From NCBI GenBank assembly GCA_017468385.1, contig JAFUIQ010000014.1, forward strand, positions 1-43,229: DNA of 43,229 bases, given 5' to 3'. Shown one piece after another: positions 3,777-34,234 of this stretch. The position numbers were made by a program, and so were the translations under genes. The stretch is from Clostridia bacterium (GTDB lineage Bacteria > Bacillota > Clostridia > Oscillospirales > CAG-272). The notes under the pieces were generated by a model, which saw only the letters and a list, made by a program, of their open reading frames with translations, had not been told where the DNA came from and searched no databases. Each line of letters starts with the position of its first letter. Within the stretch, counting starts at the first letter, position 1.

Positions 3777-4874
3777 TTATGTAGGTCCGAAAATGTTGAT
3801 ATAATCTCCAAACAGCTTTTGAGTGTATTCGCTGTTTACTCCTCCGCCCGATAGCCCACGCCCCTCACTGCTCTTGCGCTCCGATTCGGCCTGTATCTCT
3901 TCGGCAAGTATTTTCTCATAGGTTTGTGTGGCGCTGTGTGCGGATAGGCTCATTTTCATTCGATGCTCACCGTTGGCCATTGTGCGGCCGATGCTTTCCA
4001 GAATCCACTCTCCGCTGATTCCGGTGATCGGCTCCGCCAAGGTAATTCTCTGCCCGCACCGGGGCACCCAACTGCCCGCACATTCCAGCGACACCTTCGG
4101 TACAGGATTCTTTTTCTGCAAAAGCCGGTTGTTTACGATAGCGTTGGCATCCGTGTCCTCTTCCTCGGCCACGATCAGCTCCTGCATTACGCCGTATTTT
4201 GCGATACTGTCCCCATCTTCGGCGGATATACCGGTATCGTAGTACCCTGTGCTGTCCCCGGATACATATTTGATCCTGTTTCGCACGTCTTCGATGGATT
4301 CTTCCCTCTGCGGCGATGTTATCTCCGCAAGCACTGTTCCGGCGGAACGGGAGCCTACTTCCTCCACGTTCACCCGACGGAATCCTCCGTAGTATGCGTG
4401 GTAACGACGTCCGGTTATATCTCGGGCTCGTTCCAGGAGCTTGTCCATAATCTTCGCCGGCGTTTCCAGATAGCACGTCTCATCCACAGTAGCGGCGATA
4501 TCGGCAACCATGAACGGCTCGATGCCGCATTCGTCCATGAGGGATATGATCGCCTCACGGATGGTAACGCCCACAAACTGCATGGTGATCTGGGACTTAT
4601 TCAAATACCAGCACGGATCATAGCACGTATATGACCGTGCATTTTCAGTGTGAGATGTCTTTGTGATCATTCCTATAAAAGGAGAAAGACCATCCGCCCA
4701 CAGACGCACATCATCCCCAATCTGGAGCGGGGGAATATTGTATCGCGTCAAATCGCTGTACGGGATCTGAAAGGTGAATTTATCACCGAGGGTGTCCAGC
4801 GAGGAGGTGTGTGCGGCACTGATTACCGCGGGAGCGATATCCGTGCCGTTCACAACGATGCTGATATCGTTCAT
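3777..4874 (-). CDS. Baseplate hub protein, XkdQ/gp27-like
   Basis: 365-residue hub protein, counterpart of PBSX XkdQ and of the gpD/gp27 hub family. Visible signs are the N-terminal beta-domain (SLDTLGDKFTFQIPYSD), the MITKTSHTENARSYTCYDPCWYL segment, and the helical insert IREAIISLMDECGI typical of hub proteins. The last about 40 residues are charged and glycine-rich, likely a flexible tail. It overlaps the upstream XkdP-like gene by 4 nt (ATGA). Confidence 0.9.
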   Translation of the reverse strand: MNDISIVVNGTDIAPAVISAAHTSSLDTLGDKFTFQIPYSDLTRYNIPPLQIGDDVRLWADGLSPFIGMITKTSHTENARSYTCYDPCWYLNKSQITMQFVGVTIREAIISLMDECGIEPFMVADIAATVDETCYLETPAKIMDKLLERARDITGRRYHAYYGGFRRVNVEEVGSRSAGTVLAEITSPQREESIEDVRNRIKYVSGDSTGYYDTGISAEDGDSIAKYGVMQELIVAEEEDTDANAIVNNRLLQKKNPVPKVSLECAGSWVPRCGQRITLAEPITGISGEWILESIGRTMANGEHRMKMSLSAHSATQTYEKILAEEIQAESERKSSEGRGLSGGGVNSEYTQKLFGDYINIFGPT

Positions 4875-5269
4875 CCTTCCACCCCTCTGTATTGACTCAA
4901 TGTCATACTGTAGAATATATCCTTACCCCGTCTTTGCGACCAGGGGAAGGAAACGACCGCCGCTTGCATGGAAATTCCCAACTCGGGGATCGTCAACTGC
5001 AGGGGTTCGCGAGAGTCCCGCATCTTCTCGATGGCCCACACGTATTCCATGCCGTACATAGATGTGTTCAACACGTATGGTGCATAGAAAGCCGGGAAAA
5101 AGCATTCCCAGGATACTTCCTGTAATTTTCGTTTTCCGATATGGACAATCTCTCCGCCGTCAACAGTGTCGTAGGTGGTAATTTTGGCGTCGGATTTCAC
5201 ATGAATTTCCGGCGGTGTTACCGGGATCAGCAGGATGTTGGATTTGTGCCGTATGTAGATCTTCGTCAT
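4871..5269 (-). CDS. Tail protein, XkdP-like N-terminal domain, no LysM
   Basis: 132-residue protein corresponding to the N-terminal domain of XkdP-type tail proteins, which bind the tube end next to the hub. The blocks LLIPVTPPEIHVKSDAKI and GGEIVHIGKRKLQEVSWECFFPAF are typical. Most XkdP homologues are about 220 residues with a C-terminal LysM peptidoglycan-binding domain; here the protein stops after the core domain (YRGVEG). Both neighbours overlap by 4 nt, so the short form is intact in the operon and not a frameshift. Confidence 0.8.
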   Translation of the reverse strand: MTKIYIRHKSNILLIPVTPPEIHVKSDAKITTYDTVDGGEIVHIGKRKLQEVSWECFFPAFYAPYVLNTSMYGMEYVWAIEKMRDSREPLQLTIPELGISMQAAVVSFPWSQRRGKDIFYSMTLSQYRGVEG

Positions 5270-6873
5270 GTGTTTTCCACCGCCTCCAGTACACGTTCGG
5301 CCACAATCTCCGCCAGTTCTTCATCGGATCGCTGTGCACCGCTGATAAAGATCTGGATGGTGTGGCCGCCGCGCAGAATATTTCTTGTTTGCTGTGACGG
5401 GATCACGCGGGTACCGTTGGGAAGATCCACGATCTCGCCGCCACGCTCGTTGATGCGGGCAAGGCCGCCGGGATGACGGGATGTGCCGCCTGCATAGGAA
5501 GGGATGGGATCGCCGCCAAAATACTTATTCCAAGTATTCTTTACTCCGGACATGCTCCAATCCCCTTGAAACAGTCCCTTTCCTATGTCACCACCGCTGG
5601 CCGCGCCAATATCGTTAATAAACAGAATTATTTTAAGGATGCCATTCACAAGTTCGAGTAATGGTGCCAAAGCGTGCAGCAACTCTCCCGAAACATTCAC
5701 CAGTTTCTTTAACGATTCAGATTTGCCCAATATTGTTATCGTATCGATGAGTTTTTCGCCCGCATCAAGCATCCAGCCAAACACCTCGGATGCTCTGTCA
5801 GCGATCCGCTTCATGGTACCGTCCTGCTCCCACTGCTCCATTTTGGACATGACGCCCTGCACTTTTTCGCGGATACGATCCATAGCACCACCGATTTTGA
5901 TAGATCCGTCATTGGACACACCGATGATATTGGTTATCGTATTCGTGGCAATACCTTTCACAGTGGACCACATACCGGTAAGCGTACTCGCCTGCTTTTT
6001 CATACCGCCCGCATAGCGTGAATCCATAAATTCCGCCAGCGTATCGGCCAAAACGTCCTTGTCGAGGATCTTCGTGCCGCTGAACAGTTTGATTCCTTTG
6101 GATTGTGCGTACTGATTCAGCGTATCACGTGTGATGCCGATATCAGCCAGGCTGTCAAACTGCCCGCTGACGGCAGCCTTACCGAAGGCCTTGGCCATGT
6201 CCGCCACGTCGCGTTTGTTGATCGCGGCGGCATCACCGATGGAGCGCAGATACTTTTCCGTTTTCAATTCATAGGTTTCCAGCATAGCGGCCGACTCGAT
6301 CAATTCCGCATTGTCAAAGGCGGAGAAATTCGCCATATTTACGGCGTATTTCATTACCTCGGATGCCCTCTCGGCAGATTTGGTCACGGTTTCAATGTTG
6401 GCACGCAGTGTTTCCAGCTCCCCCCCGGCGGTAAATCCTGTTTTCACTCCGTCCACCACCATATTGACCGCATCTCGCAGCAGCAAAGCTTTCGCGGCGG
6501 CAGCCACATAACTTTTCGCCGTCTCCGATGCCTTCACACGCGCCATTCTCGATTTAGCAGCCTGCTGTTCCTGCAGTTTGTATTGCTTAGTCTGCACCCG
6601 CAGAGATTCTTCGCGTTCCCGCTTTAATTCCCTCTCGTTTGCGATCTGTTTCTTCAAACCGGCATTGGCAGCGCGAGCGGAAGCCTTTTCTTCCTTGGTG
6701 GCCAATTTGGCGATATCGGCTTTGGAAAGAATCTGCTGTTTCAGCTGTTTGATTTTCTCGGTGGAATCCTTTATGCTTTGGTTTGTTTCCTTGATCTGCT
6801 TCGCACTTTTTTTCAGCGGCGATGTGAAGCGGTCCACATAACCAAGAATAACGGATATAGTTTTGCTCGCCAC
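5266..6873 (-). CDS. Tail tape measure protein
   Basis: 535-residue tape measure protein. Residues 15-130 are a long charged coiled coil, followed by the TP901-type core (LETLRANIETVTKSAERASEVMKYAVNMANF and the AKAFGKAAVSGQFDSLADIGIT block) and a hydrophobic stretch near 395-435 that may insert in the host membrane. The start is GTG at 6873, overlapping the TAG of the -1 chaperone frame; the GGAGG for it encodes the end of that frame. Using the usual about 0.15 nm per residue, the tail would be about 80 nm, short for a myovirus. Confidence 0.9.
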   Translation of the reverse strand: MASKTISVILGYVDRFTSPLKKSAKQIKETNQSIKDSTEKIKQLKQQILSKADIAKLATKEEKASARAANAGLKKQIANERELKREREESLRVQTKQYKLQEQQAAKSRMARVKASETAKSYVAAAAKALLLRDAVNMVVDGVKTGFTAGGELETLRANIETVTKSAERASEVMKYAVNMANFSAFDNAELIESAAMLETYELKTEKYLRSIGDAAAINKRDVADMAKAFGKAAVSGQFDSLADIGITRDTLNQYAQSKGIKLFSGTKILDKDVLADTLAEFMDSRYAGGMKKQASTLTGMWSTVKGIATNTITNIIGVSNDGSIKIGGAMDRIREKVQGVMSKMEQWEQDGTMKRIADRASEVFGWMLDAGEKLIDTITILGKSESLKKLVNVSGELLHALAPLLELVNGILKIILFINDIGAASGGDIGKGLFQGDWSMSGVKNTWNKYFGGDPIPSYAGGTSRHPGGLARINERGGEIVDLPNGTRVIPSQQTRNILRGGHTIQIFISGAQRSDEELAEIVAERVLEAVENT

Positions 6874-16261: not shown

Positions 16262-16290
16262 TTGACATACGTGTTAATACGTGTTATAAT
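16262..16290 (+). promoter_or_regulatory. hicAB promoter with tandem 10-bp operator-like repeat
   Basis: TTGACA (16262-16267), 17-nt spacer, TATAAT (16285-16290): full consensus. The spacer is almost wholly made of two exact tandem copies of ATACGTGTTA (16267-16276 and 16277-16286), one helical turn apart. HicB antitoxins bind their own promoter, so this is the likely autoregulatory site. Confidence 0.85.
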
Positions 16291-16309
16291 ATATACAGGA
16301 GGTGAGGAA

Positions 16310-16492
16310 GTGAACTACGGAGAACTAAAACGACTGCTTAAAAAGATCGGATGCCACAAAGACCACGAGGGCACACGCCACGAAATGTGGTACAGTCCGA
16401 TCACAGGCAAGATGTTTCCGGTAGGTCGCCACGACCGCCAAGAGGTTGCTTCCGGTACACTAAAAAACATCCGGAGAGATGCGGGGCTTTAA
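16310..16492 (+). CDS. hicA: HicA-type mRNA interferase toxin
   Basis: 60-residue HicA toxin (double-stranded RNA-binding-like fold), which cleaves mRNA and is held inactive by HicB. Features: YGELKRLLKKIGC at the N-terminus, the catalytic His24 in GTRHEMW, the SPITGKMFPVGRHD strand and the C-terminal GTLKNIRRDAGL helix. The start is GTG at 16310, 7 nt after AGGAGG. It stands alone on the plus strand between minus-strand early and late phage genes, with its own promoter, so it behaves as a moron. The partner hicB follows 36 nt downstream. Confidence 0.93.
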   Translation: MNYGELKRLLKKIGCHKDHEGTRHEMWYSPITGKMFPVGRHDRQEVASGTLKNIRRDAGL

Positions 16493-16528
16493 TAAAGCCC
16501 CACCATCTTCCCCGAAAGGAGATAGATT

Positions 16529-16927
16529 ATGGCAAAGTATGTTTACCCTGCAGTTTTTACCCCTGAGGAAACCGGGTACTCGGTTGTGTTCCCTGACATT
16601 GAGTGCTGCTACACCTGTGGAGATTCTATGGCCGACGCCTTGGATATGGCACGGGACGTTCTTGCGCTCCGTCTATGCGATATTGAAAATGCGCACGAAC
16701 CGATCCCGCGCCCTTCCGACATTCGTAATGTTTCCCACGATGATGGAGAAATCGTATCGCTTGTAGGCTGCGACACCATTGAGTATCGCCGGCAAAATGA
16801 CAATCGTGCGGTTAAAAAGACGTTGACCATCCCCTCGTGGCTGAATGCCATGGCAGAAGCGGAGGATCTGAATTTCTCCGGCATCCTGCAGGATGCGCTC
16901 AAAGATCGCCTGCACATTCGCCCCTAA
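16529..16927 (+). CDS. hicB: HicB-type antitoxin
   Basis: 132-residue antitoxin. The N-terminal half (YPAVFTPEETGYSVVFPDIECC and the SMADALDMARDVL helix) is the HicB partial-RNase-H fold that binds the toxin. The C-terminal VKKTLTIPSWLNAMAEAEDLNFSGILQDALKDRL fits a ribbon-helix-helix DNA-binding domain, expected to bind the hicA promoter repeats. It has a good AAAGGAG site 9 nt before the ATG. A bidirectional terminator follows immediately. Confidence 0.93.
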   Translation: MAKYVYPAVFTPEETGYSVVFPDIECCYTCGDSMADALDMARDVLALRLCDIENAHEPIPRPSDIRNVSHDDGEIVSLVGCDTIEYRRQNDNRAVKKTLTIPSWLNAMAEAEDLNFSGILQDALKDRLHIRP

Positions 16928-21896: not shown

Positions 21897-22249
21897 TCCT
21901 GCTCACCGCCTTTCAACGCACGTTCTGCTTCTTCTCTTGTGAGGAATACGGTTTTGCCGAATGACCGTTCGCCAATATGTGCGCTCATTTTCATACCTAA
22001 AGGCAATGACATTGTTATCCAAAAGCCGCCAATGTCATATCCAATAGCGGTTACTAATACATCTAACACATACGGCTCTGCGCCCTCGTCTCCATCATCT
22101 ATGATGTACACCGTATCCCCCACCTTACAAAGCGGTACAGTCACGCCGTTTGCAAGAAGATATTCGGCGAGCGTTCTTACGTTACGGTTGCCGGCGGGAT
22201 CGGCCGGGGCATTGTCCAGCAACGCGGTCAATCTTTCAAGGTCTGTCAT
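21893..22249 (-). CDS. Phage protein of unknown function (118 aa)
   Basis: 118 residues with a helical N-terminus ([12 protein letters not shown]), a beta core that contains [16 protein letters not shown], and a C-terminus [18 protein letters not shown]. This layout (VGDTVY ... [12 protein letters not shown]) recurs in gut-phage small proteins of unknown role. GAGGAATGAT precedes the ATG; 4-nt overlaps with both neighbours. Confidence 0.75.
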
Positions 22250-22782
22250 ATCATTCCTCTTTCCTGTGATCTTGCCAAGGCGGCTTCGAAAAAATCGTCC
22301 GTGTCGAAGCTGCCCATGGGCTGTGCCGGCTTCTTCTCTGCATGGCAGAACTGAGCATTCAAATACCCCTCGAATTTATTACCAAACAGCGTTTCCGGAC
22401 GCAGATACTGCGCCATTTTCGTCCCGCACCACTCGGCGCACATCTTGTCGATCACGCAAAAGAAATCCTCCGGTTTGAATCCGGCATCGATCCGTGCTTT
22501 GATACATCTCTGCGTGGCCTGTGACTGCCAGCGGTACTTTGTTCCGGCTTTTTGGTTCAGGTGCTCGATTATAGGGCGGTAGTACGAATCGGAATAATCT
22601 TCGTCGGCGGGGTTCTCATTCTGCTTCTTCTCCGCCACCTTAACCGTGATAGTCGGCGCGTCGGCAAGCCTGCCCAGCAAACGCTTGTATATTCTCTCCT
22701 CGGCAGGATCGGCACACAGCATCCATCCCAGGATATCTTTTATTACGGCGTCCCCGTCGATCAATCTCATTTCTCTTGCCAT
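22246..22782 (-). CDS. Replication-region protein with phg_2220_C domain
   Basis: 178 residues. The region 70-150 (YYRPIIEHLNQKAGTKYRW ... IKARIDAGFKPEDFFCVIDKMCAEW ... YLRPETLFGNKFEGYLN) is the conserved C-terminal domain of phage replisome-organiser proteins (phg_2220_C). Usually this follows a winged-helix DnaD-like part; here it is joined to a short N-terminus starting MRLIDGDAVIKDILG, a motif found at the start of unrelated small phage proteins. It lies next to ssb. It probably helps replication initiation; the missing DNA-binding half makes this uncertain. The start may be 22782 or 22770. Confidence 0.8.
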   Translation of the reverse strand: MAREMRLIDGDAVIKDILGWMLCADPAEERIYKRLLGRLADAPTITVKVAEKKQNENPADEDYSDSYYRPIIEHLNQKAGTKYRWQSQATQRCIKARIDAGFKPEDFFCVIDKMCAEWCGTKMAQYLRPETLFGNKFEGYLNAQFCHAEKKPAQPMGSFDTDDFFEAALARSQERGMI

Positions 22783-23241: not shown

Positions 23242-25053
23242 TCACGCCGCCAAGGCGCAATACTCGGGCAGATTGGCTCTCACGAGAGCGGTGGCCACGG
23301 GCGGTGTTACCGCATTGCCGCAGCGTGCCACTTGCTTGGATTTCGGATACGGGTTGCCGTTTGCGTCCGTTTCGATTATGTAATCACCCGGGAATCCCTG
23401 CGCATTGAACAGCTCACGCGGCTGAAGCATACGCATGCGGATGTCGGTGATGATGTACTCCTCGCCGTGGATGGTCACCAGGGCAAATCGGTCTTTGGTT
23501 GTGACGGTGTCCAGCGGGGCGTCAACGGATTTGGCGGCGCCGTTTGAGAAATACTTCACCAGGAACGCCTGCACTTCCGCGTGGTGTGCTCCGCTCGTGG
23601 ATATGGTGGTAAGCGGTTCGTCTGCCGGCTGACCGTCCATATTGTTGCGCATGGTGAGGATGTGTGCGGTCACGAGACTGTTGTGATCCTTGGCGGTTAC
23701 CGTGTCCAGCGGGGCATCCGCGGCACTTCCGGCGCCGTTGTATCCACCCGCGTAGTTTTTCATAATATGAGCCACAGAAAGGGCGTATCGGTTGGACGTG
23801 TCCTGCGTCATCAGCGGTTCGTCGAGTTCCTGCCCGCGCACCTCGTCCTTTGCGGTTTCGGAATGATACTGGATCAAGGTGGGAGCGACCACATAATGCT
23901 TGTTACTACTCACGATTGTTCCAAGCGGTTCTTCCACGCTGTTGACTCTCGGCAGCTGTCCCTCGCGCTCTCCATATCCCACAGGGACAATCGCCGGTGC
24001 AACGAGGTAATTCCTGTTTCCTGTCGTCACCGTTGGAAGAGGAGAATCTGCCCTCGCGCCTATGTTGTTCGTGTTGTTGCACATGATCGTCGGGGCTACC
24101 ACGCCATAGCCGTGCTTGGCTGTAACCGTATTCAGCGGATCGTGGATGCTTTGCCCGCGGAATCCTTCGCCCGAATGATTTACTTGCACAATGAACGGCT
24201 CGGGATTCTCGATCACGAATTTTTGTATACCTCGGGCGATGCGGCGCAGGGTGTTTTCCGCGAGAGGCTTGTCCCTCTCGAAAATGCTCTGTGCCGGGAT
24301 ACTCCAATCGATACATTCCGCCGCGGTGCGGTACGGGAGCAGTTTTCCGGAGCGCACTGCGTCTGCCTTTTTCGGTCCGTGTGTCGGCTTCGGCCAAACG
24401 ATGGCTTTTCCGTCGCATCGGCCGATGAGATAGAATCGGGTGCGCGTGGTCGGAGCTCCGTAATCGCAGGATTTCAATGTGCGGTAGTCGATGGTATAAC
24501 CGAGCCCCTGCTGCAGCGCGTATGCCATTTTGGAATCCGTTTTGATATCCAACGCACTGCACATCTCGTGGAATACGGGGTGATCTGCCGGAACACCTGT
24601 GGTCAGGGCAAGTATGAAGCCCTCGAAGGTTTCGCCGGATCGTTCCTTGATTGGTTTGCTATCCTCGCCCAGCGGTCCCCACGTCTGGATTTCGGGGACG
24701 TTCTCCATCATCAGCACACGCGGGCGGACGTGGTATGCCCACTTGACGGCTACCCACGCAAGGCCGCGGATATTCTTGTCCACGGGCTTTCCGCCTTTAG
24801 CACGGGAGAAATGTTTGCAATCGGGGGAGAACCAGGCCAGGGCGACGGGATGGCCGCCGCAGGCTTCCACGGGATCCACCTGCCACACGTCCTCGCAGTA
24901 GTGCTTTGTATTCGGGTGGTTTGCCTTGTGCATGGCGATGGCATCGAGATCGTGGTTTATGGCGATATCCACGCTGCGGCCGATGGCTATTTCTATACCT
25001 GTGGACGCTCCGCCGCCACCGGCGAAGTTATCGACGAATAACTCACGTTTCAT
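23242..25053 (-). CDS. C5-cytosine DNA methyltransferase with repeated target domain
   Basis: 603-residue cytosine-5 methyltransferase. Motif I FAGGGGASTG (10-19) binds AdoMet; catalytic Cys79 lies in SPDCK (PDC instead of the usual PPC); ENV is at 117-119; TTRTR at 202-206 is the QxRxR equivalent; motif X GNAVTPPVATAL at 579-590. Between motifs VIII and IX, residues 304-527 hold seven repeats of about 35 residues with the core PL-x-T-V/I-T. This takes the place of the target-recognition domain. Start ATG 25053 was chosen because motif I then begins at residue 10; the upstream 55 codons are the antisense of no known motif and overlap the preceding gene. Likely protects phage DNA from host restriction. 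Confidence 0.92.
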   Translation of the reverse strand: MKRELFVDNFAGGGGASTGIEIAIGRSVDIAINHDLDAIAMHKANHPNTKHYCEDVWQVDPVEACGGHPVALAWFSPDCKHFSRAKGGKPVDKNIRGLAWVAVKWAYHVRPRVLMMENVPEIQTWGPLGEDSKPIKERSGETFEGFILALTTGVPADHPVFHEMCSALDIKTDSKMAYALQQGLGYTIDYRTLKSCDYGAPTTRTRFYLIGRCDGKAIVWPKPTHGPKKADAVRSGKLLPYRTAAECIDWSIPAQSIFERDKPLAENTLRRIARGIQKFVIENPEPFIVQVNHSGEGFRGQSIHDPLNTVTAKHGYGVVAPTIMCNNTNNIGARADSPLPTVTTGNRNYLVAPAIVPVGYGEREGQLPRVNSVEEPLGTIVSSNKHYVVAPTLIQYHSETAKDEVRGQELDEPLMTQDTSNRYALSVAHIMKNYAGGYNGAGSAADAPLDTVTAKDHNSLVTAHILTMRNNMDGQPADEPLTTISTSGAHHAEVQAFLVKYFSNGAAKSVDAPLDTVTTKDRFALVTIHGEEYIITDIRMRMLQPRELFNAQGFPGDYIIETDANGNPYPKSKQVARCGNAVTPPVATALVRANLPEYCALAA

Positions 25054-25067
25054 TTCTCTTTTCCCCT

Positions 25068-25367
25068 TTATTCCATTTTCAACTGCACAGGCCGCTCGGG
25101 CGGTTCCTGGGATTCCGTTTTTTGTGGCTCCGGGCATTCCACCTGGCTTGCTTTCAGATGGAACATGCCGTGCGGGCGGATCGTCCAAAGGCGCATATTC
25201 CACGGAAACACCGTCCACACTCCCGTCTTTTGATCAAAACTCCCCTTATACACGGCAACGCGTCTATTCCCGTTATAGGCTTCTACTATGCATTCGCCAT
25301 GATTCGGATGTCCTTTGACAACTTTGTATCGTCGGATGGTAGGTCTATAACTATATCGGCTTATCAT
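25068..25367 (-). CDS. Small phage protein of unknown function (99 aa)
   Basis: 99 residues, basic N-terminus (ISRYSYRPTIRRYKVVKGH), beta-rich middle (CIVEAYNGNRRVAVYKGSF, TGVWTVFPWNM) and a Pro/Glu/Gln-rich tail. No family recognised. The ATG at 25367 overlaps the preceding TGA (ATGA) and is preceded by GAGGAG, so the long upstream extension of this frame is not used. Confidence 0.75.
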   Translation of the reverse strand: MISRYSYRPTIRRYKVVKGHPNHGECIVEAYNGNRRVAVYKGSFDQKTGVWTVFPWNMRLWTIRPHGMFHLKASQVECPEPQKTESQEPPERPVQLKME

Positions 25368-25645
25368 ACGGATCTCCTCAGTGATCTCACGATCACATGG
25401 GATGGGATCACGCCGAGGCGTTTCGGTTTTCTTGCCCAGATAATTGCCTTGGCAATCGCCTTGGCCGCGCAAGCCACACCGATGATCACCGGCGCGGACA
25501 AAACAATAGTAATCAGCATCCCGTACCATGCGGGTGTAGGCGATCCGCACAGGGCGATCGCTCCGGTGGCGTATGCGGCCATAAGCACCGCCAGGCAATA
25601 CAGAAGGGCGGCCGCTTCGGTGATGGTATGTATAAATCGTTTCAT
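25364..25645 (-). CDS. Small two-helix membrane protein
   Basis: 93 residues with two clear hydrophobic segments (EAAALLYCLAVLMAAYATGAIA and YGMLITIVLSAPVIIGVACA) and a basic C-terminus (KAIIWARKPKRLG ... RSLRRSV). ATG at 25645 has GAGGT 6 nt upstream. It lies in the early operon. The plus-strand promoter at 25657 starts within its leader, so it may be affected by the antisense RNA. Function unknown; a superinfection-exclusion role would be speculative. Confidence 0.75.
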   Translation of the reverse strand: MKRFIHTITEAAALLYCLAVLMAAYATGAIALCGSPTPAWYGMLITIVLSAPVIIGVACAAKAIAKAIIWARKPKRLGVIPSHVIVRSLRRSV

Positions 25646-25656
25646 ATCTGTACCTC

Positions 25657-25685
25657 TTGACATTTGAGTAAATCTCTGTTACAAT
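25657..25685 (+). promoter_or_regulatory. Antisense promoter in the early region
   Basis: TTGACA (25657-25662), 17-nt spacer, TACAAT (25680-25685) on the plus strand, against the direction of the early operon. No gene follows; instead an intrinsic terminator lies 22 bp downstream (25708). Confidence 0.75.
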
Positions 25686-25691
25686 GATAGT

Positions 25692-25746
25692 GGATTTCAT
25701 TTCTCTTGGCTCGTAACCGTTCCAGCGGTTGCGGGCCTTTTTCTTT
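25692..25746 (+). ncRNA. Predicted about 50-nt antisense RNA
   Basis: Transcription from the promoter at 25657-25685 would start near 25692. A perfect-to-wobble 12-bp stem GGCTCGTAACCG (25708-25719) / CGGTTGCGGGCC (25726-25737) with a 6-nt loop and TTTTTCTTT (25738-25746) follows, a classic intrinsic terminator. The RNA would be complementary to the 3' end of the early gene at 25697-25954 and to the leader of the two-helix membrane protein gene. Promoter and terminator are seen; existence of the RNA is inferred. Confidence 0.6.
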
Positions 25747-25954
25747 GCTCCGCTGATTCTTCGTGTTCGTCTTTCCATTCCTCCGAAAAATAGATTTCTT
25801 TTCCGTCCCACGACAGGCACATAGCAGCACCTTTCCACGAGGCATCAAATTTCAGTTTGGCGGGTCCTTCCGCCAGTTTGCCGATGGCTTCGCACGTCTT
25901 TGCGAATTCCTTCAGCTTGTCCATGGGAATCAGATTTTGCCTTCCCGTTTCCAT
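25697..25954 (-). CDS. Small early phage protein of unknown function (85 aa)
   Basis: 85 residues. Helical N-terminus (METGRQNLIPMDKLKEFAKTCEAIGKL), then a beta segment (LKFDASWKGAAMCLSWDGKEIYFSEEW) and a charged tail RPATAGTVTSQEK encoded opposite the antisense RNA terminator. AAAGGAG lies 8 nt before the ATG. No family recognised; the overlap with the upstream gene is 25 nt. Confidence 0.7.
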   Translation of the reverse strand: METGRQNLIPMDKLKEFAKTCEAIGKLAEGPAKLKFDASWKGAAMCLSWDGKEIYFSEEWKDEHEESAEQRKRPATAGTVTSQEK

Positions 25955-26286
25955 AAGCGTCTCCTTTCACATACAGATGAAGTGGCTCTTTTCAATTTCA
26001 CGCAGATTTCCTTGATGGTTTTTCCTTCCTTTGCCATACGAATCAGGGTCCGATCCTCTTCGGCAGTCCATTTACGGAATGTCCGTTTTTGCCCGTCCTT
26101 CGTCAGCTCGTCCCGGAACGGATCCGGCCGCCGTTTGATTTTGAATCCTGCGGCGATGAGGATGTCCTCCACTTTGGATCGCGGCATGAGATTCAACTGT
26201 GCGATAACACCGATCTGCCGCACCGGGCTTTTCGCCTGGCGGTATGAGGTGATGATCTCGCCGTCGGTCATGTACCTGCCAGCCAT
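25930..26286 (-). CDS. Small protein with helix-turn-helix/SANT-like segment
   Basis: 118 residues. Two helical DNA-binding-like segments are visible: IITSYRQAKSPVRQIGVIAQLNLMPRSKVEDILIAAG and FRKWTAEEDRTLIRMAKEGKTIKEICVKLKRATSSVCERRRLWKR, the latter like a Myb/SANT or GcrA-type helix-turn-helix. Probably an early regulator. Position second or third in the early operon fits. Confidence 0.7.
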   Translation of the reverse strand: MAGRYMTDGEIITSYRQAKSPVRQIGVIAQLNLMPRSKVEDILIAAGFKIKRRPDPFRDELTKDGQKRTFRKWTAEEDRTLIRMAKEGKTIKEICVKLKRATSSVCERRRLWKREGKI

Positions 26287-26857: not shown

Positions 26858-26872
26858 GCGAAGATTCTTCAC
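26858..26872. promoter_or_regulatory. Operator copy 1 (near Cro-like gene)
   Basis: 15-bp near-palindrome gcgaagattcttcac. Half-sites are G[C/T]GAAG separated by 3 nt. It lies 21 bp upstream of the Cro-like ATG. Confidence 0.7.
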
Positions 26873-26882
26873 CTGTGTTCTC

Positions 26883-26911
26883 ATTATACGCGAAGTTTCT
26901 TCACTTGTCAA
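26883..26911 (-). promoter_or_regulatory. Leftward early promoter
   Basis: On the minus strand: TTGACA (26906-26911), 17-nt spacer, TATAAT (26883-26888), full consensus. Operator copy 2 fills the spacer, so bound repressor would block RNA polymerase. Confidence 0.9.
26890..26904. promoter_or_regulatory. Operator copy 2 (in leftward promoter spacer)
   Basis: 15-bp gcgaagtttcttcac, identical to copy 3. It lies exactly between the -35 and -10 of the leftward promoter. Confidence 0.75.
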
Positions 26912-26929
26912 GTGCTTTTTTGAAAATAT

Positions 26930-26944
26930 GCGAAGTTTCTTCAC
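26930..26944. promoter_or_regulatory. Operator copy 3
   Basis: 15-bp gcgaagtttcttcac, the same sequence as copy 2, just upstream of the repressor promoter -35 (26950). Bound repressor here could stabilise or limit both promoters. Confidence 0.7.
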
Positions 26945-26949
26945 CTCTA

Positions 26950-26978
26950 TTGAAATGTGAAGAATTTTCCCGTATAAT
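26950..26978 (+). promoter_or_regulatory. Repressor promoter
   Basis: TTGAAA (26950-26955), 17-nt spacer, TATAAT (26973-26978), followed by GAGGTG (26985-26990) and the repressor ATG at 26997. An imperfect operator copy lies in the spacer. Confidence 0.85.
26957..26971. promoter_or_regulatory. Operator copy 4, degenerate, in repressor promoter spacer
   Basis: gtgaagaattttccc: one half-site (GTGAAG) is intact and the other (TTTCCC) is degraded. Its place between -35 and -10 of the repressor promoter fits weak autorepression at high repressor levels. Confidence 0.6.
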
Positions 26979-26996
26979 GTTATTGAGGTGAAGAAT

Positions 26997-27602
26997 ATGA
27001 ACGTATTGAAAGAATTACGCACATCTAAGGGCGTAAAACAACGGGAAATGGCCGAGTTTCTCGGAATCGACAGAACCACTTACGGCAAGTATGAAACAGG
27101 TGCAAGTGAACCCGATTTTGATACTGTCTTAAAAATAGCAGACTATTTTGATGTTTCTGTTGACTTTTTACTGGGTCGTTCCGATTGTTTTGACTCTCCA
27201 TCTCACGACCCCACCTGGATCAATGTCCTCGGCCGCGTCGCCGCCGGCATACCGATCGAGGCTATCGAGGAAGTAATCGACCGCGAGCAGATCACAGAGT
27301 CCATGGCGAGATCTGGCTCGTATATCGGTCTCCAGATCCACGGTGCGTCTATGGAGCCGCGTATGCGTGAAGGTGACGTTGTCATCGTCCGCCTGCAGGA
27401 TGACTGCGATTCTGGTGATACCGTTATTGCCATGGTGAACGGAGACGAGGCCACCTGTAAGATCCTGCAAAAAACGCCGGACGGGATCTCTTTGCTATCC
27501 ACAAATCCGGCGTATAGTCCTATGTTCTATTCCAATCGCGAAATCGAAGAAAAACCCGTGCGCATCATTGGCAAGGTCGTCGAGCTGCGTGCAAAGTTTT
27601 AA
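26997..27602 (+). CDS. Self-cleaving phage repressor (XRE + S24 peptidase)
   Basis: 201-residue CI/LexA-like repressor. Residues 1-60 are a helix-turn-helix (LKELRTSKGVKQREMAEFLGIDRTTYGKYETG); 100-200 are an S24 peptidase with Ser118 in HGASMEP and Lys155 in EATCKIL. A cleavage-like Ala-Gly lies at 83-84 in RVAAGIP. So RecA-triggered self-cleavage and SOS induction of the prophage are expected. The ATG at 26997 is chosen over the GTG at 26988, since GAGGTG lies 6 nt before the ATG and overlaps the GTG. Confidence 0.95.
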   Translation: MNVLKELRTSKGVKQREMAEFLGIDRTTYGKYETGASEPDFDTVLKIADYFDVSVDFLLGRSDCFDSPSHDPTWINVLGRVAAGIPIEAIEEVIDREQITESMARSGSYIGLQIHGASMEPRMREGDVVIVRLQDDCDSGDTVIAMVNGDEATCKILQKTPDGISLLSTNPAYSPMFYSNREIEEKPVRIIGKVVELRAKF

Positions 27603-27663: not shown

Positions 27664-28761
27664 ATGGATTTTATTGATCTCCTTCGTCAATTCTCCGCTC
27701 GAACTTCTAAACTTTACCCTCAAATTCAAACCGAAGAAGCTACAAAAACTTCCCTCATTATGCCCTTCTTCCAGCAGATTCTTGGGTACGATGTTTTCAA
27801 TCCGGATGAATTTGTGCCGGAGTTTACCGCTGATGTAGGCATCAAAAAAGGTGAGAAGGTCGATTATGCAATCCTCATCGACGGCACACCCACGATCTTG
27901 GTCGAGGCAAAATGGTGCGGCGAACCACTGGATAAACATGATTCGCAGTTATTCCGCTACTATGGAACAACTACTGCCAAATTTGCTATCCTCACAAACG
28001 GTCTTCTGTATAAATTTTACACAGATCTTGATGAACCTAATAAAATGGATTCCAAGCCGTTTTTTGAGATTGACCTCTTGAATATTCGGGAGCTTGATGT
28101 TCCGGAGTTGAAGCGCTTCTGTCGTTCTAATTTTGATGCAACCGAAGTATTCGACAGAGCATCCGAACTCAAATACTCCAGCGCGATCCGTAATTACTTC
28201 ACACAACAGCTTCGTGAACCCAATGATGATTTTGTTAGATTCATGTGTGGTCAGGCTTATGAAGGCGTAAAGACACAGGCGGTAATCGACAGATTCCGCC
28301 CTATTGTCAAGGTAACGTTGAACAATTTGATTTCGGAAATGATGAACGACCGTATTTCCTCTGCCTTGAAGTCTGATGCCGATAAGGATGACGATACCGA
28401 AAAAAGCATTGCTTCCGATCAAGCGGAAGCATCCGAAGATGAGAACAAAGACACTCTTGCTCGCGGAGCAATAGTTACAACTGAGGAGGAAATGCAGTCA
28501 TTCCTCATCATAAAGGCGTGTTTGGCCGGTTCAGTCTCCCTGTCTAATATTTCCTACAAAGATACAGTCAACTATTTTTCCGTGGTTTACAATGGTCAGT
28601 CCACTAAATGGATTGTCCGTATGCGCTTAAGCGGCCGCAAAAAATATTTTAGCACCCGATCCGCAACCGGTGAGGAAATCCGGCACGATATTACATGCCC
28701 GGATGATATTTACCAATTCCGCGATGAGATTATTGTCGCCGCCAAACTTTACGAGCAGTAA
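27664..28761 (+). CDS. Restriction-endonuclease-like protein (HsdR N-terminal / COG4748 type)
   Basis: 365 residues. The N-terminal 110 residues form a PD-(D/E)XK nuclease-like core: Glu25 in TEEATKTSLIMPFF, Asp67 in VDYAIL, Glu81-Ala-Lys83 in VEAKW, and a QxxxY-like Q95LFRY. This matches the nuclease domain of type I HsdR subunits, but no helicase follows; the C-terminal half is a separate beta-rich domain (SLSNISYKDTVNYFSVVYNGQSTKWIVR). Such stand-alone genes are common beside prophage repressors. GAGGTG precedes the ATG. Possible role in superinfection exclusion; target unknown. Confidence 0.85.
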   Translation: MDFIDLLRQFSARTSKLYPQIQTEEATKTSLIMPFFQQILGYDVFNPDEFVPEFTADVGIKKGEKVDYAILIDGTPTILVEAKWCGEPLDKHDSQLFRYYGTTTAKFAILTNGLLYKFYTDLDEPNKMDSKPFFEIDLLNIRELDVPELKRFCRSNFDATEVFDRASELKYSSAIRNYFTQQLREPNDDFVRFMCGQAYEGVKTQAVIDRFRPIVKVTLNNLISEMMNDRISSALKSDADKDDDTEKSIASDQAEASEDENKDTLARGAIVTTEEEMQSFLIIKACLAGSVSLSNISYKDTVNYFSVVYNGQSTKWIVRMRLSGRKKYFSTRSATGEEIRHDITCPDDIYQFRDEIIVAAKLYEQ

Positions 28762-28893: not shown

Positions 28894-30012
28894 ATGCCGA
28901 TCTACAAAATGGATGGCAGCAAGGACGGTCTGAAGCGATACCGCGTCCGCATCAATTATGTGGATCAGGACGGCAAGCCTCGCCAAATCGAGCGCGTCGC
29001 ATACGGGAACGCCGAGGCGAAAGAGCTGGAGCGGAAACTATACGAGCAAATAAAAAACGAGGCACCCACCGCTCGCGTCACTTTTGACTCGCTGTGCGAT
29101 GATTACCTCGTAGCAAAGAAAAATTCCGTCCGTGCTACCACATACGATAAAACACGTCGGAATCTGGATCTATATATTCGCCCTACCCTGGGGAACCTCA
29201 AACTGGATCGCCTTACCCCGCAGCGGCTCCAGACGTGGAAAAACACCATAGATGAAATGGACCTTGGACTGCAAACCAAGCGTAACATCTACAAAGAACT
29301 GAATATCGTCCTGAACTGGGCGGTCAAGTTGGAGCGCATCCCAAAGAACCCTCTCTCCCCCATTGGGACTTTCCAAGAGGTGTACTTTGAGAAACCGCAG
29401 GACAAGCTGCACTACTACACTTCGGAAGAGTTTCTGTCGTACATCGCCATTGCCTACGCCCGACAGGATTGGCCGTATTACGTTTTCTTCTCAATCGCAT
29501 TTTATACCGGCATGCGCAAGGGAGAGATCAATGCCCTGAAGTGGTCCGATATCGAAGGCACCACCATTCACGTGCGCCGGAGTATTTCCCAAAAGGTAAA
29601 AGGGGATGATCTGGAAACCCCTCCAAAGAACAAATCCTCGTACCGCGATCTGCAGATGCCTGCTCCTCTCATTGAGATCTTAAACGAGCACAAAAAGCGG
29701 CAGATGTCCGATCCACGCTTTACGGATGATTACCGCGTGTGCGGCGGATCATCTGTACTTCGTGACACGTCCATCGAGAACAAAAACAAGGCGTATTGCC
29801 AATCTGCTGGCCTCCCGCATATAAAAATACACGATTTCAGGCACACGCACGCCTCTCTTCTCGCCAATGAAGGAATCAGTATTCAGGAGATTGCACGCCG
29901 TCTGGGACATAGCAATGTGGTCATCACTTGGAACACTTACGCACACCTTTATCCACGTGAAGAAGAGCGTGCAATTTCGATCTTAAATCAAATTCAGCCA
30001 CAAAACGTGTAA
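28894..30012 (+). CDS. int: Tyrosine recombinase phage integrase
   Basis: 372-residue integrase. Residues 1-50 are an AP2-like arm-binding domain (YKMDGSKDGLKRYRVRINYVDQDG), 60-160 a core-binding SAM-like domain, and 175-365 the catalytic domain with Arg208 (YTGMRKGE), Lys247, His313-x-x-Arg316 (HDFRHTHASLL), His339 (LGHS) and nucleophile Tyr349. AAGGAGG precedes the ATG. It is the last prophage gene, next to the tRNA target. Confidence 0.97.
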   Translation: MPIYKMDGSKDGLKRYRVRINYVDQDGKPRQIERVAYGNAEAKELERKLYEQIKNEAPTARVTFDSLCDDYLVAKKNSVRATTYDKTRRNLDLYIRPTLGNLKLDRLTPQRLQTWKNTIDEMDLGLQTKRNIYKELNIVLNWAVKLERIPKNPLSPIGTFQEVYFEKPQDKLHYYTSEEFLSYIAIAYARQDWPYYVFFSIAFYTGMRKGEINALKWSDIEGTTIHVRRSISQKVKGDDLETPPKNKSSYRDLQMPAPLIEILNEHKKRQMSDPRFTDDYRVCGGSSVLRDTSIENKNKAYCQSAGLPHIKIHDFRHTHASLLANEGISIQEIARRLGHSNVVITWNTYAHLYPREEERAISILNQIQPQNV

Positions 30013-30065: not shown

Positions 30066-30142
30066 TGGTGGAGACAACTGGGATCGAACCAGTGACCCCT
30101 TGCATGTCAAGCAAGTACTCTAACCAGCTGAGCTATGCCTCC
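30066..30142 (-). tRNA. tRNA-Val (GAC)
   Basis: Minus-strand tRNA with a 7-bp acceptor stem (GGAGGCA / TGTCTCC, one G-U), D-arm, anticodon stem CTTGC/GCAAG around loop TTGACAT (anticodon GAC, Val), T-loop TTCGATC and an encoded CCA. The 3' end faces the prophage, so it is the likely integration target; the 3' half (about 30066-30110) is the expected attR core. The tRNA is complete. Confidence 0.97.
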
Positions 30143-30159
30143 GTGCCAAATACTTTATC

Positions 30160-30188
30160 ATTATACCATTGTACCTATGGTTTGTCAA
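30160..30188 (-). promoter_or_regulatory. tRNA-Val promoter
   Basis: Minus strand: TTGACA (30183-30188), 17-nt spacer, TATAAT (30160-30165), full consensus, 18 bp before the tRNA 5' end. Confidence 0.9.
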
Positions 30189-30243
30189 CAGTTATTTTGC
30201 TTTTCCCCCGCAAAAGTCAACCAGAATATTTGTTCGTTTTTCA

Positions 30244-30272
30244 TTGACAAAGAACGAGTGTTCGTGTATACT
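30244..30272 (+). promoter_or_regulatory. dinB promoter
   Basis: TTGACA (30244-30249), 17-nt spacer, TATACT (30267-30272). A LexA-type box occupies the spacer and a second lies over the start of transcription. Confidence 0.9.
30252..30263. promoter_or_regulatory. LexA (SOS) box 1
   Basis: GAACGAGTGTTC matches the Gram-positive LexA core GAAC-N4-GTTC and sits between the -35 and -10 of dinB. Confidence 0.85.
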
Positions 30273-30279
30273 ATATGCA

Positions 30280-30291
30280 GAACATTCGTTC
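30280..30291. promoter_or_regulatory. LexA (SOS) box 2
   Basis: GAACATTCGTTC, a second GAAC-N4-GTTC copy 28 bp further on, between the -10 and the ribosome site (AGGAGAG, 30292-30298). Confidence 0.8.
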
Positions 30292-30302
30292 AGGAGAGTG
30301 TC

Positions 30303-31604
30303 ATGAGTAGAAGTATTTTGCACTGCGATCTGAATAATTTTTTTGCGTCCGTAGAGTGTGTCCGTCACCCGGAATGGAAGGATCGCCCTGTGGCCGTTTG
30401 CGGCTCGGTAAAGGAGCGGCACGGCATCTGTCTGGCGAAAAATTATCCGGCCAAAAAATACGGCATTCGCACCGGAGATACCGTAATCGATGTGTTGAAA
30501 AAATGCCCGGATGCGATCCTGGCAGAGCCCCACTATGAGGAGTACGAAAAATATTCCCGTCTGACCCAGGCGATCTACGAGGAGTACACCGATCGAATCG
30601 AGCCCTTCGGATGCGATGAAAGCTGGCTGGATGTGACGGCCAGCACCCTGCTCTTCGGCGATGCCGGGCACATAGCGGACGTGATCCGCGAACGCACGAA
30701 GCGGGAGTTGGGGCTGACCATATCGGTGGGCGTATCATTCAACAAGATTTTCGCCAAGCTGGGCAGCGATATGAAGAAGCCGGATGCGGTAACCTGCATT
30801 ACAGAATCGGATTTCCGGGAGAAAATCTGGCATCTGCCCGCCAGTGAGATGTTGGGAGTGGGGCCATCCACTTATCGGGCGCTGGAGAAGCGGTGCATCC
30901 GCACCATCGGGCAGATTGCCCGGACGCCGCCCGGTTATCTGCGCACATGGCTGGGAAAGAACGGAGAAACCCTGTGGCGGTACGCCAACGGACTGGACAC
31001 CGCCGAGGTGATCCCCTGCGCCCGGGCCGCGCCGATGCAAAGCATTTCCCGGGGCATGACGCCTCTTCGGGATATGGAAAATGAGGCCGAGTGCGCGGCT
31101 TTTCTCACAGAGATGGCCCAGGAGGTAGGCCGCCGTCTGCGCGAAAACAGGCTGTACGCGGGAGGAGTGAAGATCTCGCTCCGGGATACGAAACTGTGCT
31201 CCCGGGAGTTTCAATGCACGCTGCACACGCCCACCATGCACACGGATGTGATTGCCAAGGCCGCGGTAGAACTGCTGCGCAAGCATTATCGGTGGCAGAA
31301 TCCCCTGCGATCCGCCTCGGTAACGGCCATTCAGCTGACGACGGAGCACACGCCGGCGCAGATGGACATTCTATATGATCCCACCGCGGAGGAGAAAAAA
31401 GATCATCTGGACCGCACCATCGACACGCTGCGGCAGAAATACGGATCGCACAGCATTTGCCCCGCCTCTTATTTCACGCTGACGGGCTGCCGCGGCAAAA
31501 CCATGCTGATTTCCCCCGATCGGAACTGGAGTCCTGCCTTTTCTTTGGGGGAAGGCTTGCGGGACCGACCGGTAGATGCGATTCCGTTCGGGACTTTGTT
31601 TTGA
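30303..31604 (+). CDS. dinB: DNA polymerase IV (Y-family translesion polymerase)
   Basis: 433-residue Y-family polymerase. DLNNFFASVE at residues 9-18 and CDESWLDVT near 105 carry the metal-binding acidic residues; the thumb has LGVGPSTYRALEKRCIRTIGQIA, and the C-terminal little-finger domain follows (VGRRLRENRLYAGGVKISLRD). It copies past damaged bases at the cost of errors. The start at 30303 follows AGGAGAG; a longer frame would run through its own promoter. Expression should rise in the SOS response. Confidence 0.94.
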   Translation: MSRSILHCDLNNFFASVECVRHPEWKDRPVAVCGSVKERHGICLAKNYPAKKYGIRTGDTVIDVLKKCPDAILAEPHYEEYEKYSRLTQAIYEEYTDRIEPFGCDESWLDVTASTLLFGDAGHIADVIRERTKRELGLTISVGVSFNKIFAKLGSDMKKPDAVTCITESDFREKIWHLPASEMLGVGPSTYRALEKRCIRTIGQIARTPPGYLRTWLGKNGETLWRYANGLDTAEVIPCARAAPMQSISRGMTPLRDMENEAECAAFLTEMAQEVGRRLRENRLYAGGVKISLRDTKLCSREFQCTLHTPTMHTDVIAKAAVELLRKHYRWQNPLRSASVTAIQLTTEHTPAQMDILYDPTAEEKKDHLDRTIDTLRQKYGSHSICPASYFTLTGCRGKTMLISPDRNWSPAFSLGEGLRDRPVDAIPFGTLF

Positions 31605-32875: not shown

Positions 32876-34234
32876 TCAGTTCTTCAAGCTCTGCATGGGA
32901 GCAGGAATGCGGCCGCCGCGATGAATAAACTTGGCGGAAGAACGATCGTTATGCAATGCCATAACGGGGCCCTGACCCAGCAGTCCTCCGAAGGACAACT
33001 CCTCGCCGATCTGCTTGCCTATGGCGGGAATCACGCGGACCGCCGTGGTCTTGGAATTGACCATACCGATAGCAGCCTCGTCCGCGATGATGGCGGAGAT
33101 GGTTTCCGCGGTGGTATCGCCGGGAATGACGATCATATCCAGACCGACGGAGCAAACGGCGGTCATGGCTTCCAGCTTTTCAATGGAGAGATCCCCGGAA
33201 CGGGCGGCGGCAATCATGCCCGCATCCTCGGACACGGGAATAAATGCGCCGGACAGACCGCCCACATGGGAGGATGCCATAACGCCGCCCTTCTTGACAG
33301 CGTCATTGAGCAGTGCCAGCGCGGCGGTGGTGCCGTGGATACCGCAGATCTCCAGACCCATTTCCTCCAGGATGTGGGCCACGGAGTCGCCCACCGCGGG
33401 GGTGGGAGCCAGGGACAGATCCACGATGCCGAAGGGCACGCCGAGGCGCTTGGATGCCTCACTGCCCACCAGCTGTCCCATACGGGTAATCTTGAACGCG
33501 GTACGCTTGATGATATCCGCCACTTCGGTCAGATCGCCATCGGGGCACTTCTGCAGAGCGGCGCGGACCACACCGGGGCCGGACACACCCACATTGATTA
33601 CGCAATCCGGTTCGCCCACGCCGTGGAAAGCACCGGCCATAAAGGGATTATCCTCGGGCGCATTGCAGAACACCACCAATTTTGCGGGGCCGATGCAGTC
33701 CCGATCCTTGGTCAATTCCGCCGCTTCGCGGACTACGCGTCCCATCAGGGCCACCGCATCCATATTGATGCCGGCCTTGGTGGAACCGATATTGACGGAG
33801 GAGCAGATGTGCTCCGTGGAGGCCAATGCCTCGGGGATGGACTGAATCAGTGCCAGATCCCCGGCGGAAAAGCCCTTATGAACAAGAGCGGAATATCCGC
33901 CGATAAAGTTAACGCCTACCGTCTGGGCGGCACGCTCCAGCGTCAGCGCGTATTTCACGGGGTCGCCGCCGCTGACGGCTGCCAGCATGGCAATCGGCGT
34001 GACGGAAATGCGCTTATTGATGATCGGAATACCGTACATGTGCTCGATATCCTCACCGGTGGACACCAGTTTCTCCGCCAGGCGGGTAATCTTATCGTAT
34101 ACTTTGTTGCAGCTGCGATCGATATCGGAATCAGCGCAGTCCAAAAGGGACATACCCATGGTGATGGTACGGATGTCCAGATTTTCTTCCTGAATCATGG
34201 TGATGGTTTCCATGATATCGCGTATGTTCAGCAT
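32876..34234 (-). CDS. UPF0210 (PFL, DUF711) family protein
   Basis: 452-residue protein of the UPF0210 family (related to pyruvate-formate-lyase-like barrels). [33 protein letters not shown] and [20 protein letters not shown] are characteristic. Function is not firmly known. It is nearly always paired with the small ACT protein (UPF0237) as here, which suggests amino-acid-dependent regulation. Confidence 0.93.

Follow-up and report, generated by a model that had tools for sequence, protein, structure and literature searches.

Control of lysogeny by OOP-type RNA has been described from lambdoid phages. In the sections of the cited papers available to us, lambda OOP is a 77-nt RNA (PMC12197685) that overlaps the end of cII by 52 nt (PMC5869508) and lowers cII expression via RNase III (PMC3985674, PMC12197685), and its promoter pO lies beside the first codon of O, convergent with and interfering with pR (PMC3985674). 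From similar excerpts, the antisense RNA STnc6030 of prophage BTP1 is expressed in the lysogen, and its expression abolished BTP1 infection (PMC7067206), and C. difficile prophages carry type I toxin-antitoxin pairs (RCd11 and others) with toxins of 34–47 aa and an antisense RNA overlapping the toxin transcript (PMC7699646). No OOP-like RNA of a Clostridia or other Firmicutes phage stood among the matches listed from the open-licence PMC literature, and by a term search the main text of a 2025 review (PMC12197685) contains none of the terms Firmicutes, Clostridi, Bacillus or Gram-positive.

We analysed a 43,229-nt stretch of DNA (the window) from a Clostridia bacterium, which is one whole contig of a 62-contig, 2.2 Mb genome and carries a prophage. 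The features of the locus and of the surrounding early region are as follows.

25657–25685, plus strand: antisense promoter of the sigma-70/sigma-A type, TTGACA (25657–25662), 17-nt spacer, TACAAT (25680–25685)
25692–25746, plus strand: predicted small antisense RNA of ~55 nt, start placed 7 nt past the −10 element, ends predicted
25692–25707, plus strand: unpaired 5′ tail of the predicted RNA, candidate pairing region, UUUCAUUUCUCUU
25708–25746, plus strand: intrinsic terminator, hairpin (25708–25737) and tail TTTTTCTTT
28894–30012: integrase gene, beside a tRNA gene
26988–27602, plus strand: phage repressor gene, helix-turn-helix and S24 peptidase
26858–26971, no strand assigned: putative repressor operators, GCGAAGTTTCTTCAC and variants, located where the early and repressor promoters diverge
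26883–26911, minus strand: early promoter, TTGACA, 17-nt spacer, TATAAT, driving the operon toward the antisense promoter
25930–26286, minus strand: upstream early gene, 118-aa helix-turn-helix protein (PHROG 323, D5-like regulator)
25697–25954, minus strand: 85-aa early gene with no family match, its last 50 nt beneath the predicted RNA
25364–25645, minus strand: gene for a 93-aa two-helix membrane protein, with a weak homologue in the closest relative found
25068–25367, minus strand: 99-aa early gene downstream of the membrane-protein gene, a neighbour relation kept in that relative
23242–25053, minus strand: DNA cytosine methyltransferase gene, start region (25048–25060) complementary to the RNA tail
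22246–22782, minus strand: replication initiation protein gene (PHROG 428), codons 2–6 (22767–22778) complementary to the RNA tail

The early genes on the minus strand encode, in order, a 69-aa Cro-like protein, a 102–105-aa protein, the 118-aa helix-turn-helix protein, the 85-aa orphan and the 93-aa membrane protein, followed by the 99-aa protein, the methyltransferase, an SSB and the replication initiation protein. The 85-aa protein had no match in Pfam, PHROG or NCBIfam. Elsewhere in the prophage, between repressor and integrase, the plus strand carries an HSDR_N gene (27664–28761; N-terminal part of a type I restriction R subunit; endonuclease by PHROG 4225), and the phage with this gene also encodes a cytosine methyltransferase. 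A HicA (16310–16492) and HicB-like (16529–16927) type II toxin-antitoxin pair occupies the plus-strand region 16262–16927 behind a 12/12 extended promoter (16262), in opposite orientation to the late operon.

A preliminary description, made from the letters of this DNA, had proposed a small antisense RNA transcribed from a TTGACA-17-TACAAT promoter and ending in a 12-bp hairpin 22 bp further on. The sequence scan recovered the plus-strand promoter, which also carries an extended −10 TG at 25677–25678, and the hairpin at the predicted 22-nt distance from the −10 element; on recount, the stem has 13 pairs, including 3 G-U pairs, and a 4-nt loop, rather than 12 bp. The predicted RNA folds at −23.3 kcal/mol (z −6.15), and none of 200 shuffles was equally good. 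Folded as plus strand, the hairpin stretch gains 8.3 kcal/mol in stability over the minus strand (−22.1 versus −13.8 kcal/mol), whose version is weaker because of the 3 G-U pairs in the stem. Two frames run open across the RNA, for 17 and 18 codons, lacking a start codon and ribosome site, and in our reading neither is a convincing reading frame. Both the transcription start at 25692 and the 3′ end are predictions. As proposed, the RNA would be antisense to the junction between the 85-aa gene and the two-helix gene, covering the last 50 nt of the former, including its stop codon, and 5 bases of the gap, and it would leave the coding part of the membrane-protein gene uncovered. The ribosome site is uncovered too: the first ATG of that gene is at 25663, but the ribosome site GAGGT (25652–25656) suits the ATG at 25645, and the RNA would start 36 nt upstream of this site and be transcribed away from it. 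The −35 element, at 25657, adjoins the ribosome site, 12 nt upstream of the start codon. A short RNA antisense to this junction is well supported at the level of sequence.

The promoter-terminator unit at 25657–25746 is far beyond chance. With a rule pairing a promoter of at least 11/12 matches with a stem of at least 8 within 100 nt, 40 dinucleotide shuffles of the window gave a mean of 0.05 pairs, and promoter-like sites of at least 11/12 numbered 6 in the window against 0.4 per shuffle. Two promoter-terminator pairs were found in the window with promoters of at least 9/12, the antisense unit being the sole one at 11/12 or better; a looser terminator rule added a second 11/12 pair at 30244 on the plus strand, beside the tRNA gene and outside the prophage.

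Searches for relatives pointed to a single close one. No clear relative other than L063 and its genome, G003, was obtained by direct searches with the 85-aa and membrane proteins: neither protein had a homologue in viral contigs, nor the 85-aa protein in phages, and in 395 family genomes the 85-aa protein matched its own genome and one weak sequence (E 0.003, two internal stops). A two-row alignment of the membrane protein gave 10 matches, comprising its own genome, G003, which is itself a row of that alignment, and eight weak ones (E 3e-4 to 9e-3). The DNA of the locus matched no phage and, among 97 genomes, only the window itself; the exact hairpin sequence was absent from viral contigs, where the 118-aa protein also had no match.

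L063, from the same host genus, is the closest relative found (repressor 72% and methyltransferase 83% identical), and L166, judged by its length and content, is the same contig. In single comparisons with the window, its helix-turn-helix gene aligned at E 3e-10, its membrane protein at E 4e-6 (27 residues aligned) and the next gene at E 2e-7; its 197-aa protein could not be read as the 118-aa protein fused to the 85-aa one, as the 85-aa portion did not hold up. A lack of conservation in related prophages had been named as refuting the prediction, and this one close relative found retains both promoter and hairpin at the syntenic junction: before the homologous membrane-protein gene, on the antisense strand, lies a 12/12 extended promoter (TTGACA-17-TATAAT with TG), followed by a predicted ~100-nt RNA (fold ~−41 kcal/mol) and the terminator GCGCTCTCG..CGAGGGCGC TTTTTCC. 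The loop of this terminator is too large for the pattern-scan rule, so it was recognised by eye and by folding, and the entry of L063 in the strict-rule scan described below rests on a different, weaker T run. The two RNA loci align with a score of 140, above all 2000 shuffles (mean 86, maximum 137), a score raised in part by the promoter hexamers common to both. The upstream gene and the RNA body differ between the two phages, the promoter being better conserved than the RNA body, and in L063 the RNA reaches over the ribosome site of the membrane-protein homologue, while the window RNA leaves that of its own gene uncovered. Position and architecture kept while sequence drifts is what would be expected of a cis-antisense RNA or of a convergent promoter. 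Between its 99-aa homologue and the methyltransferase, L063 also has an early gene built from repeats (SLYLGSLMSIPEGFNPTVGG and variants; 4800–5989, plus strand), and a second copy of the 99-aa homologue's coding end lies on the far side of that gene.

We then looked at wider sets, in which relatives' hairpins cannot be aligned to one another. Methyltransferase-anchored loci numbered 45 viral and 44 genomic; the repressor matched in 46 of 243 genomes, giving 35 stretches from 31 genomes, together with 59 viral loci. The strict rule was applied to 111 non-redundant loci (124 minus 13 duplicates; 1.26 Mb; short loci L001–L003 and L093–L132 left out), where we counted 126 strong promoters, the shuffle sets averaging 4.4, and 35 promoter-terminator units, the shuffle sets averaging 0.6 (5 shuffles); many of these 35 are ordinary sense or leader units. 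Read by eye, nine are antisense at a phage-gene junction: those of the window and L063 and, at other junctions in more distant phages, the following seven.

L142: antisense unit before a 121-aa gene
L030: antisense unit before a gene that we take to be PAPS-reductase-like
L054 and L025: antisense units before a methyltransferase gene
L034: antisense unit before what is presumably an SSB gene
L010: antisense unit before a 114-aa gene
L077: antisense unit before an integrase gene

In several units the −35 element lies within ~20 nt of the downstream start codon, and the RNA falls entirely within the gap in L034 and L077 and nearly so in L010 (3 nt of overlap). L034 and L010 are viral contigs, and L010, with its many consensus promoters, is weaker evidence for recurrence. 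A wider set of 157 loci (183 minus 26; 1.70 Mb) gave 71 units, 29 of them called antisense at junctions by a crude gene caller, a rough count given that these calls misassign the window's own entry (a shadow ORF taken as a flanking gene) and others. L182 and L192 also fit by eye, with weak hairpins. Of 11 units from several phages, seven favoured the RNA strand by at least 5 kcal/mol and L063 by 0.9 kcal/mol, and the hairpins of L054, L192 and L182 were 0.3 to 2.8 kcal/mol better on the other strand, a comparison that is supporting only, the units having been selected on the RNA strand. Some antisense promoter with terminator was listed, under a loose rule, in 17 of the 35 repressor-anchored stretches (several of them short); 13 units of this set and part of the remainder were read by eye and the others judged on scores, and in our judgement only L166/L063 and L142 have a strong unit inside the early operon. 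Repressor-leader units in L140, L142 (at 1182) and L160 were set aside as probable repressor promoters, by position. A strong antisense unit is missing from most relatives examined.

Words resembling the repressor operators were absent near the antisense promoter, the only outlier beyond 26858–26971 being a 3-mismatch match at 32921, and no copy of GAACNNNNGTTC, which we take to be a LexA-type box, occurred with up to 1 mismatch between 22894 and 30224. With both absent nearby, we infer that the antisense promoter lies outside repressor and SOS control, and the lack of an operator there makes control of early mRNA by the RNA in the lysogen, as first suggested, plausible. Just past the tRNA gene, three LexA-type boxes (two exact; 30224–30291, plus strand) lie near the start of a Y-family DNA polymerase ORF (30135–31604), whose true start is probably after them.

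The layout, likened in the preliminary description to phage regulatory RNAs, has the geometry of lambda OOP, which is an analogue, not a homologue. As in OOP, a short terminator-ended RNA would arise from its own promoter and start between two early genes, antisense to the end of the upstream one (50 nt here versus 52 nt in lambda), and the promoter sits where the downstream gene begins, firing toward the early promoter. The comparison with OOP covered layout and gene content. The genes differ, an 85-aa orphan standing in place of cII and a membrane protein in place of the replication initiator O; no LexA-type site was found at the promoter, and the RNA would be shorter. Rfam returned no family at the gathering score. 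The P22 sar and sas RNAs are likewise short phage antisense RNAs, with different targets (ant and sieB); the only sub-threshold Rfam match was the sar hairpin, at 14.4 bits (gathering 43; E 4.6), which is chance level.

We favour, at a probability of roughly 0.55, a repressor-independent cis-antisense RNA acting like lambda OOP, which would cut or block leaky early mRNA in the lysogen; we favour it because the geometry is that of OOP, and OOP lowers cII via RNase III. Promoter, terminator, strand, overlap and the position conserved in one relative can all be read from the DNA. From a promoter apparently free of the phage repressor, a ~55-nt RNA against the early operon would be transcribed, presumably constitutively in the lysogen, and terminate within the 85-aa gene. 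With the early promoter off, it would exceed the leaky early transcripts and pair across the junction, from the 3′ end of the 85-aa gene into the gap ahead of the gene for the membrane protein, where the duplex would be cleaved by RNase III or the message blocked, with a presumed effect on early genes. Upon induction, the strong early promoter would outrun the antisense RNA. A CII-like target is not conserved, since the upstream gene differs between the window and L063, and the promoter rather than the RNA may be what matters.

The main rival to this cis-antisense reading is promoter interference, in which the RNA is a by-product and the convergent promoter itself holds down early transcription, either because polymerases collide or through promoter occupancy, an effect proposed for pO acting on pR in lambda. 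The section of PMC3985674 on pO reports that its activity lowers pR-driven transcription beyond pO and that OOP RNA leaves O-P mRNA unaltered, and the better conservation of the promoter than of the RNA body in L063 points the same way. Interference alone needs no strong terminator. Each of the nine units checked by hand nevertheless ends in one, although they had been picked with that feature as a criterion, and we consider interference rather unlikely.

A bolder and unproven proposal gives the RNA targets in trans, with its unpaired tail as a seed that would block translation initiation at the methyltransferase and replication genes, whether in the lysogen or in a superinfecting phage. The tail is exactly complementary over 13 nt to the former start and over 12 nt to the latter gene. 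Among 28000 plus-strand 16-nt windows, 29 (in four places) matched one of 37 start regions over at least 12 nt, two regions being matched solely by the four windows that begin at 25693–25696; composition shuffles of the 16-nt tail reached 13 nt in 9 of 20000 and 12 plus 11 nt at two starts in 1 of 20000, and the duplex with the replication start is computed at −23.4 kcal/mol. The complementarity was, however, noticed post hoc, with start positions partly chosen by the analyst and with purine-rich start regions that ease matching. Among 19961 dinucleotide shuffles of the low-complexity 18-nt tail (503 distinct), 430 reached 13 nt and 87 two matches of 12, the methyltransferase duplex (−17.4 kcal/mol) was no better than four other starts among the 37, and at no start did the L063 RNA match over as many as 11 nt. 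Silencing in trans is, on this evidence, distinctly doubtful. Its extension, that junction antisense RNAs with a −35 in or beside the downstream ribosome site recur, independently evolved, in Clostridia temperate phages, and that here the tail also silences the replication and methyltransferase starts in trans as an RNA immunity layer beside the repressor, we regard as unlikely. The window RNA might possibly block superinfection as STnc6030 does; according to the available part of its description, STnc6030 is likewise antisense to a junction between the 3′ end of one phage gene and the 5′ end of the next, but is ~786 nt long and lies in late genes.

Chance, or neutral antisense transcription without function, would sit well with the scarcity of strong units among the relatives, and antisense transcription is common in bacteria; the 0.05 pairs per shuffled window and the syntenic conservation in L063 oppose it, making it very unlikely. 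A type I toxin-antitoxin pair in which the two-helix protein would be the toxin, a likeness raised loosely in the preliminary description, recalls the C. difficile prophage pairs in that a small membrane protein adjoins an antisense RNA in a Clostridia prophage, and in L063 the ribosome site does lie under the RNA, but it is highly improbable here: the protein has 93 aa, against the 34–47 aa given for those toxins in the excerpts of PMC7699646, is encoded in a polycistronic operon with no promoter of its own listed just upstream by the promoter scan, and, unlike the toxin transcripts of those pairs, has neither start nor ribosome site covered by an RNA that runs away from it.

Antisense units of this kind are compact loci that are testable with reporters, and their presence in Clostridia prophages, with the geometry of OOP but not its genes, would suggest that phages repeatedly arrive at the same solution, a small antisense RNA placed where two early genes meet.
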